The notes under the pieces: generated by a model
The model's input: the letters and a program-made list of their open reading frames with translations, nothing else
What the model was told of the DNA's origin: nothing
The model's database searches: none
Position numbers and translations under genes: made by a program
Assembly: GCA_016290995.1 (NCBI GenBank)
Contig: JAEEVR010000013.1
Location: forward strand, 1 to 64,000
DNA length: 64,000 bases
Origin: Treponema sp.
GTDB lineage: Bacteria > Spirochaetota > Spirochaetia > Treponematales > Treponemataceae
Direction of reading: 5' to 3'
In this document: piece after piece, positions 57,391 to 64,000 of the stretch
Position numbering within the stretch: the first letter of the stretch is position 1
Layout of the letters: each line of letters begins with the position of its first letter

Positions 57391-58497
57391 TTGGACAGAA
57401 CTAGCAAAATAATAAAAACAAGCGTTATAGGAATACTGGCCAATGTAGTGTTGGCTGGTTTAAAGTTGGTGGTTGGACTTCGTTCAGTCTCAACTTCTAT
57501 AACGCTTGACGCTGTCAACAACTTGACAGACGCGCTGGCGCCGCTGATAACGATTATCGGCGTGAAGCTATCGGTAAAGGATCCTGACAGAAAGCATCCT
57601 TATGGTTATGGCAGAATTGAATGTCTTTCCACCATGGCCATAGGAATAATTATCAGCTACACCGGTTTGTTTTCGGTAATCGAATCGGTTAAGAAGATCA
57701 TGCATCCGGCGGCGCCAAATTACAGCCCGCTCGCGCTTGAAATAATCGCTCTTACGGTTGTAGCGCGAATGTTGTTTGGCCTTTACACAATAAAATCGGG
57801 AAAAAAACTTGAATCGGAGTCGCTTGTCGCTTCCGGAAAAGACGCGCTCAACGATTCTTTCATTTCAATCTCAACTATTATAGTAGCCCTTGTCTTTATT
57901 TTTACTGGGCTCAATGTGGAAGCCTTTTTGGGCCTCGTGTTTTCGGGTTTGATTATCAAGGCGGGAATGGAAACGCTCTATGGCACTGTTAGCAAAATTC
58001 TTGGCGAGCGCGTTCCAATGGAATTGTCAAAGGCGGTAAAAGAATCCATAAAGTCATTCCCTGAAATTGACGGCGTGTACTGCCTTGTCATACATGATTA
58101 TGGAAAAGACCGCCTTTTGGGTTCCGCTCACATCGAAGTTCCCGAGTCGCTGACGGCTTTGTATCTTGACACGCTTGAACGGAGCGTCGCGAAGAAAGTT
58201 TTGGATGACACGGGCGTTGAGCTTATAGGAATAACTGTGTACGCGACGAATGTGGCCAACCAAGAGACCGCGAACGACAAAAAGAAAGTTAAGGAAATTC
58301 TTTCCGAATATAAAGACGTCTTGCAAATGCACGGCTTTTACAAGGACAAAGTTGACATGGTCGTCAAGTTTGACTTGGTGATTGACTTTGACACAAAAAA
58401 CAAAAAGGCTCTGCGCGACGAGATTGCGCAAAGGGTCCAAAAGCTTTTTGCGGATTATGAAGTTTCCATTGCTGTAGACTATGACTATTCTGAATGA
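57391..58497 (+). CDS. Cation diffusion facilitator (CDF) transporter
   Basis: A 368-residue metal:proton antiporter. Transmembrane helices contain the metal-site pattern SITLDAVNNLTDA (Asp, Asn, Asp in helix 2), and the conserved KDPDRKHPYGYGRIE loop is present. The C-terminal cytoplasmic domain (about 210-300) carries DGVYCLVIHDYGKDRLLGSA and a family-typical tail (FDLVIDFD, VSIAVDYDYSE). The variant NLTDA in place of the classic HxxxD arrangement is found in the manganese/iron-leaning branch, so the metal may not be zinc. The only start in frame is a TTG at 57391 without a clear ribosome site, implying coupling to the upstream gene. Confidence 0.9.
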   Translation: MDRTSKIIKTSVIGILANVVLAGLKLVVGLRSVSTSITLDAVNNLTDALAPLITIIGVKLSVKDPDRKHPYGYGRIECLSTMAIGIIISYTGLFSVIESVKKIMHPAAPNYSPLALEIIALTVVARMLFGLYTIKSGKKLESESLVASGKDALNDSFISISTIIVALVFIFTGLNVEAFLGLVFSGLIIKAGMETLYGTVSKILGERVPMELSKAVKESIKSFPEIDGVYCLVIHDYGKDRLLGSAHIEVPESLTALYLDTLERSVAKKVLDDTGVELIGITVYATNVANQETANDKKKVKEILSEYKDVLQMHGFYKDKVDMVVKFDLVIDFDTKNKKALRDEIAQRVQKLFADYEVSIAVDYDYSE

Positions 58498-60834: not shown

Positions 60835-61839
60835 TTAGCGAAGCGCCTTTTTAAGAACTTCAAGGTTGTTCTTCATAGCGGAAAGGTAAGAGCGGCCGGC
60901 CTTGATGTCCTTTTGGGTGATGGATTGGAGCGAATCCATTTCCAAGATTTCCGCGCTCTTCTTTTTTGTGTTGGAAACGATTGTCTTGGCGATTTTTTTG
61001 TCGCTCTTTTCTATCGTAAGAACGGCGTTGAGGCCAAGCTCGTCAACCTTTTTGGCAAGGAAAATCACCGTTTCAAAGCTGGCTTCGGTTTCCGCGCTGC
61101 AGCCTACAAAGGCCGCGTAATACTTAAGATTGTAGTCGTCGGCCAAGTAGCGGAAGGGGAAGCGGTCGCCGAACAAAATCGTTTTCTTTGCGGCCGCCGC
61201 AACAGCTTTCTTGCACTGTGCGTCAAGGTCAAGAAGCTCTTTTGCGTAAGAGGCGGCGTTAGCCTTGTAGGCGGCGGCGTTGGCGGAATCAAGCGCGGAA
61301 ATTTTTTGCGCGAGCGTTTGGACAAGCGCTGCGGCGTTCCTTAAAGAAAGCCAAACATGCTCGTCGTACTCAACTTCGTCGTGGTGGTGATGGTGGCCTT
61401 CGTGGTTGTGGTCGTGATCATGTTCATGCTTGTGTTCTTCCTCTTCTTCCTCGGCCTGCATTCCTTCCACGACTTCCTCTTCCTTGACTTTGTCGCCAAG
61501 CGCTTCCATCATGTTCACTACAATCATGTTTTTGTTTTTGGCCTCGGCGACGGCTTTTTCTATCCATTCGTCGCTTTCGCCGCCTACAAACACCAGCATG
61601 TCGCAAACGGAAATTTTCGCGATGTCCTTGATTGAGGCTTGGTAGCTGTGCAAGTCCGTTCCGTTGTTTTGAAGGAGCGTGACGTTAAAGTTTGCGGCCT
61701 TGTCGCCGAGAATGTTCATTACCCAATCGTACTCGGGATAAGACACGCAAACGATGGATTTTTTGGAGGCGGCGAAAGCCGCGGCGCTGAGAGTTAGGGC
61801 CGCGATAATGGCGGCGATTTTTTTGATTTGTTTTTTCAT
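60835..61839 (-). CDS. znuA: Zinc-binding periplasmic lipoprotein-like protein (ZnuA/TroA family)
   Basis: A 334-residue periplasmic metal-binding protein. After a signal peptide (IIAALTLSAAAFAASKK) come the cluster A-I features: a first metal His in NGTDLHSYQASIKD, a long acidic and His-rich loop (EEEEEEHKHEHDHDHNHEG, then HHHHHDEVEYDEHVW), and further ligands in the second lobe. His-rich loops of this type are typical of zinc carriers. No ABC permease or ATPase gene is adjacent in the window. The start is set at the ATG at 61839 rather than 61848, because the latter lies within the -10 box. A palindromic operator overlaps the promoter. Confidence 0.9.
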   Translation of the reverse strand: MKKQIKKIAAIIAALTLSAAAFAASKKSIVCVSYPEYDWVMNILGDKAANFNVTLLQNNGTDLHSYQASIKDIAKISVCDMLVFVGGESDEWIEKAVAEAKNKNMIVVNMMEALGDKVKEEEVVEGMQAEEEEEEHKHEHDHDHNHEGHHHHHDEVEYDEHVWLSLRNAAALVQTLAQKISALDSANAAAYKANAASYAKELLDLDAQCKKAVAAAAKKTILFGDRFPFRYLADDYNLKYYAAFVGCSAETEASFETVIFLAKKVDELGLNAVLTIEKSDKKIAKTIVSNTKKKSAEILEMDSLQSITQKDIKAGRSYLSAMKNNLEVLKKALR

Positions 61840-61846
61840 ATGCCGC

Positions 61847-61893
61847 ATTATGAGGAATTTTCAGCTTTTTGTCAATATGAAAACGGTTTTCAT
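61847..61893 (-). promoter_or_regulatory. Promoter and Fur/Zur-like operator of znuA
   Basis: On the minus strand TTGACA (61875-61870), 17 bp, CATAAT (61852-61847), then seven bases to the ATG. ATGAAAAC (61877-61884) and GTTTTCAT (61886-61893) form a perfect palindrome around one base, directly upstream of the -35 box, with an extra TTTTCAT half-site beside it. This fits a metal repressor site. Confidence 0.6.
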
Positions 61894-61912
61894 TTTCATA
61901 TTTTTTTAGGGC

Positions 61913-61945
61913 AAAAAAAGGCCCGCCCCAGGAGTAAGGCGGACC
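61913..61945 (-). terminator. Intrinsic terminator after the amt-PII gene
   Basis: GGTCCGCC pairs with GGCGGGCC (with one G-U pair) around a 10 nt loop at 61920-61945, followed by seven T on the minus strand. Confidence 0.75.
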
Positions 61946-61970
61946 AAGATATTTTTACTTATATTATGGG

Positions 61971-63674
61971 CTAGTCTTGCAAGGCTTCGTAGCCTTCTTC
62001 GCCGGTGCGAACCTTGATGACGTTCTGAACGTCGTAAACAAAGATCTTTCCGTCGCCGATGTGGCCGGTGTACAAAACTTCCTTTGCGGCGCTGATTACA
62101 AGGTCAACTGGAACTTCGCTTACTACGATGTCAACCTTGATCTTAGGCAGCAAGCTCATTTCCATTTCTACGCCGCGGTACTTTTGCACGTGTCCGTGCT
62201 GAACGCCGCAACCCAAAACGTTTGTAACCGTCATGCCGGTAACGCTGATGTCGTTCATCGCGCTCTTAAGCTCGTCGAACTTGCTGGCGCGAGTGATAAT
62301 CGTAACCATATGGAACTTGGCGCCGGGCTTTTTTGAAGCCTTTGTTACAGGAACGGCCTTCTCAACAGGAACGTCGCCAGTGACTTCGGAAAGGTTGGCG
62401 GCGCTAAGTCCTCCGATTCCGGCCTCTCCGCCTGTCATAACTTGCGGAGCCATGATGAATCCGCCGTAAGCGCTGTCGATTCCGTGCTCCAACTTGTCAA
62501 GGCCGATGACCTCTTCCTCGCGGCTGGCGCGAAGGCCGTGGAACTTTTTAATCAAAGTGAACGTGATTATCATGCACACTGTCGTCCAAGCGACGATTGT
62601 AAATTCGCCCAAGGCCTGAACGCCAAGGTGTCCGAATCCGCCGCCGTAGAAAACGCCGCTCTCTACGTTGAACAAACCGTCAGACAAAGTTCCCCAAATG
62701 CCGTTGGCAAGGTGAACGCCTACGGCTCCAACCGGGTCGTCGATGTGAAGCTTGAGGTCCAAGCCTTCTACAACGATTACTACGATGATGCCGGCAACGA
62801 TGCCGATGATTGTCGCTCCAAGAGCGTCAACCGTGGCGCAAGTCGGAGTGATGGCGACAAGGCCCGCAAGCGAGGCGTTCAATGTCATTGAAACGTCAGG
62901 CTTTCCGTTCTTGAACCAAGTAAAGAACATTGTTGTGATGGCGGCAACAGCCGGAGCGATTGTCGTCGTTGTGAAAACGGCCGCAAGTCCGCCAACGCCT
63001 TCCAACTGGGTGCAAGCGGCGCCGTTGAATCCGTACCAACCGAACCACAAGATGAACGTTCCCAAAGCGCCAAGCGTAAGAGAGTGTCCGGGAATGGCGT
63101 GGGCCTTTGTGACCTTGCCGTTCTTGTCGTAATCGTATTTTCCGATGCGGGGACCAAGGAAGATGGCGCCAATCAAAGCGGCGACACCGCCTACAGAGTG
63201 GATTGCCGCTCCGCCGGCAAAGTCAACGAATCCAAGCTGAACCAACCAGCCTTGGCTGTTCCAAACCCAACCGGCTTCGATCGGGTATACGACCGCGCTG
63301 ATTACCGCGGAATAAATGCAGTATGCGCTGAACTTAGTGCGTTCCGCCATTGAGCCGGAAACGATTGTGGCGGCTGTGGCGCAGAAGACCAAGTTGAACA
63401 CAAAGCTTGACCAGTCAAGGTCGGCAAAGTTTGTGAAAAGCTGCAAGTTGGGCTTTCCGATAACGCCGAACAAATAGTTCTCGCTCATCATAAGGCCAAA
63501 GCCCAAGAGCATGAACATCGGAGTTCCGATACAAAAGTCCATCAAGTTTTTCATGATGATGTTTCCCGCGTTCTTTGCTCGCGTAAAACCTGTTTCGACC
63601 ATGGCAAAACCGCATTGCATAAAGAATACAAGAGCGGCGCCGATTAGGAACCATACGCTCCAAACTTCACTCAT
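61971..63674 (-). CDS. amtB: Ammonium transporter fused to a PII signalling domain
   Basis: A 567-residue protein. Residues about 1-430 are an Amt/Rh channel with eleven hydrophobic segments, including MQCGFAMVETGFTRAKN, the ammonium-transporter signature DFAGGAAIHSVGGVAAL and FILWFGWYGFNGA. After a linker, residues about 453-567 form a complete PII (GlnB/GlnK) domain: VTGMTVTNVLGCG, T-loop HGHVQKYRGVEMEM, and the C-terminal GHIGDGKIFVYDVQN and IKVRTGEEGYEAL. PII normally blocks AmtB in trans; here the regulator is tethered. The uridylylated Tyr51 position is Met, so control must rely on ATP/ADP/2-oxoglutarate binding. The ATG at 63674 has a perfect AGGAGG site. The leader contains two terminators. 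Confidence 0.95.
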   Translation of the reverse strand: MSEVWSVWFLIGAALVFFMQCGFAMVETGFTRAKNAGNIIMKNLMDFCIGTPMFMLLGFGLMMSENYLFGVIGKPNLQLFTNFADLDWSSFVFNLVFCATAATIVSGSMAERTKFSAYCIYSAVISAVVYPIEAGWVWNSQGWLVQLGFVDFAGGAAIHSVGGVAALIGAIFLGPRIGKYDYDKNGKVTKAHAIPGHSLTLGALGTFILWFGWYGFNGAACTQLEGVGGLAAVFTTTTIAPAVAAITTMFFTWFKNGKPDVSMTLNASLAGLVAITPTCATVDALGATIIGIVAGIIVVIVVEGLDLKLHIDDPVGAVGVHLANGIWGTLSDGLFNVESGVFYGGGFGHLGVQALGEFTIVAWTTVCMIITFTLIKKFHGLRASREEEVIGLDKLEHGIDSAYGGFIMAPQVMTGGEAGIGGLSAANLSEVTGDVPVEKAVPVTKASKKPGAKFHMVTIITRASKFDELKSAMNDISVTGMTVTNVLGCGVQHGHVQKYRGVEMEMSLLPKIKVDIVVSEVPVDLVISAAKEVLYTGHIGDGKIFVYDVQNVIKVRTGEEGYEALQD

Positions 63675-63685
63675 AACGTTTCCTC

Positions 63686-63805
63686 CTAGAGTAAAAAAAA
63701 ACGACGGGGCCAGACCTCCGCGCCACGCGTTCGCGCGAAAAGTCCGGCCCCATCGCCGTTTAAAGAAAAAAAGGTCGCGGGAACACCCAGTTCCTGCGAC
63801 CTCAT
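63686..63805 (-). CDS. Candidate 39-codon leader peptide ahead of amt-PII
   Basis: On the minus strand an ATG at 63805 opens a 39-codon frame ending in TAG (63688-63686), just before the amt Shine-Dalgarno sequence. It runs through both terminator hairpins. It has only a weak ribosome site (AAGACG). Its composition (for example MRSQELGVPATFF) shows no obvious run of one regulatory amino acid, so it may be a chance frame; but its position is that of an attenuation leader. Confidence 0.3.
   Translation of the reverse strand: MRSQELGVPATFFSLNGDGAGLFARTRGAEVWPRRFFLL
63692..63760 (-). terminator. Second intrinsic terminator in the amt-PII leader
   Basis: A long imperfect stem: bases 63742-63760 pair with 63700-63715 (core GGGGCCGGAC with GTCTGGCCCC) with a small bulge, followed by nine T. 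It ends 18 bases before the amt start codon. Confidence 0.75.
63766..63801 (-). terminator. First intrinsic terminator in the amt-PII leader
   Basis: GGTCGCAGGAAC pairs with GTTCCCGCGACC (one mismatch) around a 5 nt loop, followed by seven T. It lies only about 15 nt after the predicted transcription start. Confidence 0.75.
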
Positions 63806-63820
63806 CGTCTTATGCTGTGA

Positions 63821-63849
63821 TTTATAGCGCTAATGAAAAAAAGTGTCAA
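63821..63849 (-). promoter_or_regulatory. Promoter of amt-PII
   Basis: On the minus strand a perfect TTGACA (63849-63844), 17 bp, TATAAA (63826-63821). Predicted start of transcription is near 63814, giving a leader of about 140 nt. Confidence 0.75.
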
Positions 63850-63885
63850 TAGGATTTTAAAAAATTTTTTTAGTTTGTCGCGCCG

Positions 63886-64000
63886 CTAGTCTGACATGTC
63901 GGTGTCAAGGTTGATTTTTACGCTGTAGCCGGGAAACTCTCTTGAAACCTCTTGCAAAATCTGGGCGTACTCGGCCTCGCGGTCTTTGGCCTCAAAAGAA
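63886..64000 (-). CDS. C-terminus of a probable CDF transporter (5' part outside window)
   Basis: Only the last 38 codons are inside the window, ending at a TAG at 63888-63886. The visible sequence (AEYAQILQEVSREFPGYSVK followed by INLDTDMSD) matches in pattern the C-terminal tail of the CDF transporter at 57391-58497 (FADYEVSIAVDYDYSE). In this family the last cytoplasmic beta-strand ends in such an acidic tail. The assignment is tentative because of the short length. It is on the same strand as amt-PII and upstream of its promoter. Confidence 0.5.
   Translation of the reverse strand, partial: SFEAKDREAEYAQILQEVSREFPGYSVKINLDTDMSD

Follow-up and report, generated by a model that had tools for sequence, protein, structure and literature searches.

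Why should an ammonium transporter gene be preceded by two complete transcription terminators, both lying between its own promoter and its start codon? The question is raised by the amt-PII gene near the end of the 64,000-nucleotide stretch of Treponema sp. DNA analysed here (the window). An earlier note on this DNA had proposed that amt is under transcription attenuation, perhaps responsive to nitrogen. Our analysis supports attenuation, with nitrogen as the most likely link, and we consider it highly likely that the leader attenuates transcription in the manner of ANTAR systems, through two consecutive modules, and that it belongs to a nitrogen regulon.

Two intrinsic terminators separate the amt promoter from its gene

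The features of the leader are collected in Table 1. Transcription is predicted to start at about 63814-63813 on the minus strand, and both terminators lie upstream of the amt ATG at 63674, which is served by an AGGAGG ribosome-binding site at 63687-63682. The 123-nt leader as a whole has a folding z-score of -7.8, with 0/200 shuffles folding as well. The serial arrangement described in the earlier note, a promoter and then two intrinsic terminators before the amt start, is thus borne out by both the sequence and the folding energies. The promoter was read directly from the sequence, and a promoter scan in which the -10 box must end in T misses its TATAAA. The spacing from promoter to module is kept in dozens of relatives. 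The earlier note goes too far, however, in confining the action of the terminators to the amt transcript: upstream on the same strand lies a cation-efflux gene that ends at 63886, and the stretch from there to the amt leader showed no terminator.

Table 1. Positions in the window of the features of the amt-PII leader and its gene
Feature	Position	Strand	Description
Sigma-70-type promoter	63849-63844 (-35), 63826-63821 (-10)	minus	near-consensus TTGACA, 17-nt spacer, TATAAA; read from sequence
Candidate antiterminator hairpin 1	63809-63798	minus	GAC-GAUGAG-GUC; hexaloop 63806-63801 (G1 A2 U3 G4 A5 G6); kept and covarying in relatives
39-codon open frame	63805-63686	minus	judged not functional
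Intrinsic terminator 1	63803-63766	minus	stem 63803-63771, U tract 63772-63766; -21.8 kcal/mol, z -4.5
Candidate antiterminator hairpin 2	63758-63745	minus	CGGC-GAUGGG-GCCG; hexaloop 63754-63749 (G1 A2 U3 G4 G5 G6)
Intrinsic terminator 2	63757-63693	minus	stem from 63757, U tract 63701-63693; -44.7 kcal/mol, z -5.8
amt (ammonium transporter fused to PII domain)	63674-61971	minus	567 aa; PF00909 E 8.6e-117, PF00543 E 9.6e-24

A hexaloop hairpin overlaps the 5' arm of each terminator

Known ANTAR systems carry the hexaloop on a small hairpin of its own, which shares sequence with the terminator's 5' arm (Ramesh 2012, PMC3369931; Walshe 2022, PMC8934654). The ANTAR protein stabilises this hairpin, in which loop positions 1 and 4 are conserved, against the overlapping terminator (PMC3369931; PMC8934654). 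The earlier note had set ANTAR control aside because the hairpin loops did not fit the hexaloop pattern. That objection falls away, as the hexaloop is to be sought in this separate hairpin and not in the terminator loop, and a fitting small hairpin is found before both terminators. Each closes at least 3 bp around a six-base loop, carries G at loop position 4 and contributes its 3' strand to the 5' arm of an intrinsic terminator.

The loop end and the 3' strand of hairpin 1 also serve in the 5' arm of terminator 1, and the 5' arm of terminator 2 takes in nearly all of hairpin 2, so hairpin and terminator folds are mutually exclusive. Forcing the fold to hairpin 1 gives a structure approximately 10 kcal/mol weaker than the terminator 1 fold, and for hairpin 2 the cost relative to terminator 2 is approximately 20 kcal/mol. 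Unaided, the terminators would win by these amounts and the default state of the leader would be off.

The leader departs from the canonical ANTAR target at two points. The first is loop position 1, where an A is important in EutV and NasR (PMC3369931) and both amt loops of the window have G. Among 104 distinct sites, A occupies this position in 86 and G in 18, the two window sites being among the latter; the hairpin 2 loop of the sister species L002 is AACGGG, with A at position 1. The second is the number of hairpins. The eut leaders need two hexaloops, 5-12 nt apart, for each terminator, and altered spacing impairs induction (PMC3369931). No such P1 hairpin is present 5-12 nt upstream of the hexaloop in the window leader. 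The hexaloop stem starts 11 nt past the -10 box (11-13 nt in most relatives), so that only 4-6 nt of RNA precede it if transcription starts 7 nt past the -10 box, leaving no room for a recruiting P1 hairpin. Neighbouring hexaloops in series are at least 27 nt apart. Given the missing P1 hairpin and the G at position 1 in the window, we place the leader outside the canonical dual-hexaloop ANTAR RNAs and regard it as a variant of the ANTAR target, one that very probably shares the mechanism of those already known.

The module is conserved and its stem covaries

Leaders of amt were gathered from the genus Treponema and from a set of named genomes, which overlaps the first set in Treponema. When these were searched for a six-base loop closed by at least 3 bp and overlapping a terminator, with the loop sequence left unconstrained, the loops recovered were almost exclusively R-A-N-G-R-N. 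Hexaloops of the RANG type with at least 3 bp were present at 123/143 terminators of 89 Treponema amt leaders, 99/143 having the A1/G4 loop, and at 40/49 terminators of the named-genome set; as related sequences are not independent, these counts and the covariation figures below show how strong the pattern is and should not be read as exact probabilities. By comparison, no RANG hexaloop was found at any of the 46 terminators in positions 1-60000 of the window, and two further control sets gave 5/83, a count that may include genuine sites.

Of the sites picked by their loop alone, blind to pairing, 67% formed all three closing pairs; shuffling the 3' strands brought this down to 21% (maximum 35% in 5000 shuffles). 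The stem itself varies widely across sites, with GAC/GTC, GGC/GCC, AGC/GCT, CAC/GTG, TGC/GCA, CGC/GCG, ATC/GAT and TAC/GTA all represented, and in GGCGATGTG-type leaders the hexaloop hairpin is CATC-AAAGGC-GATG. In 27 diverse sites we counted 39 double changes in hexaloop stems; these were hand-picked from detected hairpins and hence biased, the loop-anchored shuffle being the fair test. The earlier note had named conservation of the hairpins and of an alternative pairing in related Treponema as the check on regulation. Both hairpins and the exclusive hexaloop pairing are kept there, and they covary.

Nitrogen genes share the module

In relatives the module is found immediately ahead of genes of glutamine and nitrogen assimilation: purF, dapF-dapL, amt, asnB, gltB, gltD and glnN. 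In the window's genome glnN is also preceded by the module, with a canonical CAUC-AAAGGC-GAUG hairpin, A at position 1, within the terminator. Homologues of gltB, asnB and purF in the same genome were inspected for the module and none was found. Matches to the module pattern beyond amt in this genome had no evident matching terminator in the sequences listed and were treated as background.

One site lies before dapF-dapL, genes for lysine and cell-wall precursors (L249:2970-3035; G015 C11), an unexpected member of a nitrogen regulon.

A single ANTAR regulator is encoded next to glnA

The window's genome encodes one ANTAR protein (PF03861, E 4e-14, above the Pfam cut-off; G000:C35:63422-63580), in which a PF00072 receiver is joined to the PF03861 ANTAR domain. 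Its gene begins 4 nt past the glnA stop, and glnA is directly upstream of the ANTAR gene in 30/30 relatives examined. One locus with this gene order is L123:6791-8599. The residues through which EutV contacts RNA are mostly retained: K143, K147, K149, E160, M172 and N173 are unchanged or conservatively substituted in 31/31 ANTAR proteins compared, and the position of Tyr164 is His in all 31. Among the same 31 proteins R142, R168 and R177 are not conserved.

The receiver is atypical. Its phospho-acceptor Asp is kept in nearly all the regulators compared, the usual N-terminal acidic pair is missing, and no gene resembling a kinase was noticed around the ANTAR gene. The missing acidic pair and the lack of a neighbouring kinase-like gene make a non-kinase signal plausible, for instance one received via glutamine synthetase, and the regulator may not be driven by phosphorylation.

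A model for control of amt and its alternatives

From these features of the DNA we infer ANTAR binding and antitermination at the amt leader. By default, RNA polymerase would halt at terminator 1 or terminator 2. When active, the ANTAR regulator encoded after glnA would bind the small hexaloop hairpin at the foot of each terminator, on its 5' side; with the hairpin's 3' strand thus sequestered from the terminator, transcription would proceed into amt. Read-through is expected under nitrogen limitation, this being the probable direction of the response, and the ANTAR protein would sense nitrogen perhaps via glutamine synthetase and not via a kinase.

Could a metabolite act on the terminators directly? 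A riboswitch, for glutamine for example, with the hexaloop as part of its ligand pocket, would account for the conserved loop bases and for the location before glutamine and nitrogen genes. We consider this improbable. A scan with Rfam riboswitch and leader models gave no match in window 61000-64000, glutamine riboswitches being included at E up to 5, and the leaders of relatives gave no riboswitch match at the gathering threshold. The conserved part is a hairpin of 12-14 nt, small for an aptamer; it co-occurs with an ANTAR gene next to glnA, and its R1/G4 loop identity is that of ANTAR targets.

Less probable again is that the promoter mainly serves to make short terminated transcripts that soak up the ANTAR protein. 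The EutX/Rli55 RNA, which titrates EutV, sets a precedent for such a decoy (PMC8934654), and the terminated RNAs of approximately 50 nt would carry the hexaloop sequence. In a terminated RNA, however, the terminator stem sequesters the hexaloop strand, and a nitrogen gene follows every module.

We give even less weight to attenuation by a leader peptide translated from the 39-codon frame. The frame does span both terminators, as the earlier note had it, and it is open in the window and two sister species, but it has no ribosome-binding site, its ATG falls inside the first hexaloop, that ATG is missing in L005, L006, L008, L010 and L015, and in L002 and L003 a frame shift alters the peptide. 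With no conserved upstream reading frame in relatives this candidate was rejected, and the frame is probably irrelevant. Equally doubtful is that these are plain tandem terminators insulating amt from cation-efflux read-through without regulation, for which the unterminated stretch after the upstream gene would speak, because the amt promoter sits between that gene and the terminators, the leader keeps its layout next to other upstream genes as well (in L002 and L003 the cation-efflux gene is not adjacent to the amt leader), and ordinary terminators of the window lack the hexaloop (0/46).

Relation to known ANTAR systems

The amt switch looks like a nitrogen-gene control system known from other bacteria, here in unusually compact form. 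The closest parallel is EutV/EutW control of eut antitermination in Enterococcus faecalis, with which the Treponema leaders share a G4 hexaloop whose 3' strand overlaps a terminator, an ANTAR response regulator with most RNA-contact residues kept, and several terminators under one regulator. They differ in having a single hexaloop for each terminator, placed right at the RNA's 5' end, where eut has two; in a regulator gene that follows glnA with no adjacent kinase gene; and in a loop position 1 that may be G.

NasR at nasF in Klebsiella and AmiR at amiE in Pseudomonas are likewise ANTAR proteins that override a leader terminator through A1/G4 hexaloops in nitrogen metabolism, but their targets are dual hairpins, unlike the single Treponema hexaloop. 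Their sensor domains also set them apart from the Treponema regulator, NasR responding to nitrate and AmiR to amide. NitR, a clostridial ANTAR regulator, is encoded beside glutamine synthetase and has nitrogen targets; going by this description, the Treponema regulator is similar in both gene position and targets.

A genome search had already predicted ANTAR RNAs before genes for PII, ammonium transporters, and glutamine and glutamate synthases (Ramesh 2012, PMC3369931). Those predictions match the Treponema leaders in target genes, overlapping terminators and many-site nitrogen regulons, but came from a dual-hairpin model, which could have missed single-hexaloop sites; the main text makes no mention of Spirochaetes or Treponema (PMC3369931). 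The EutV-RNA structure has since led to the minimal ANTAR site being redefined as a single hexaloop, and the extent of its natural use was asked (Walshe 2022, PMC8934654). The Treponema leaders look like a natural answer to that question. There are dozens with one hexaloop per terminator and no room for a recruiting hairpin, which makes the single-hexaloop model directly testable. They would also give gut spirochaetes a nitrogen-control circuit of which we found no description in the papers searched: no paper on ANTAR control in spirochaetes was found in the open-licence literature, though earlier genome scans may list a Treponema hit in their supplementary tables.

A wider reading is tentative, falling a little short of an even call: that single-hexaloop, 5'-terminal tandem ANTAR antitermination may run the whole nitrogen-assimilation regulon of spirochaetes, through an orphan regulator co-encoded with glnA and bearing an atypical receiver, with nitrogen perhaps sensed via glutamine synthetase instead of a histidine kinase.

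Distribution of amt, the regulator and the module

Across 146 Treponema genomes, 119 have both amt and an ANTAR gene, 14 have neither and 13 are discordant (Fisher p 2.7e-10). No ANTAR gene was detected in 6 of the 125 amt-bearing genomes, most of these six being incomplete assemblies. The module DNA pattern follows the same division, being present in 94/132 genomes with amt or ANTAR and in 2/14 with neither (p 5e-5). In the wider order ANTAR is patchy (31/149 genomes).

Six matches to the module pattern occur in G066, a genome 82% complete with neither ANTAR nor amt detected; these may reflect assembly gaps or orphan sites.

Proteins 62-70% identical to this Amt-PII are found in gut Clostridia, and several of the amt-PII leaders there carry the same hexaloop-terminator module. 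This is a strong hint that the nitrogen-control circuit is common to gut clostridia and Treponema, and the identity and the shared leader module together suggest exchange between the two, perhaps by gene transfer.

Metal-handling genes around amt

A gene for a ZnuA-type zinc-binding protein has the promoter TTGACA-17-CATAAT, and a 7-1-7 palindrome, TGAAAACGGTTTTCA, at window positions 61878-61892 overlaps this promoter on its -35 side. The palindrome looks like a Zur/Fur-type operator. The exact sequence occurs only there within the window, and its count at 2 mismatches is not significant alone. Cation-diffusion-facilitator genes at 57391-58497 and from 63886 onward (L031:3886-5013) flank the region with the ZnuA-type gene between them, forming a metal-handling neighbourhood around amt.
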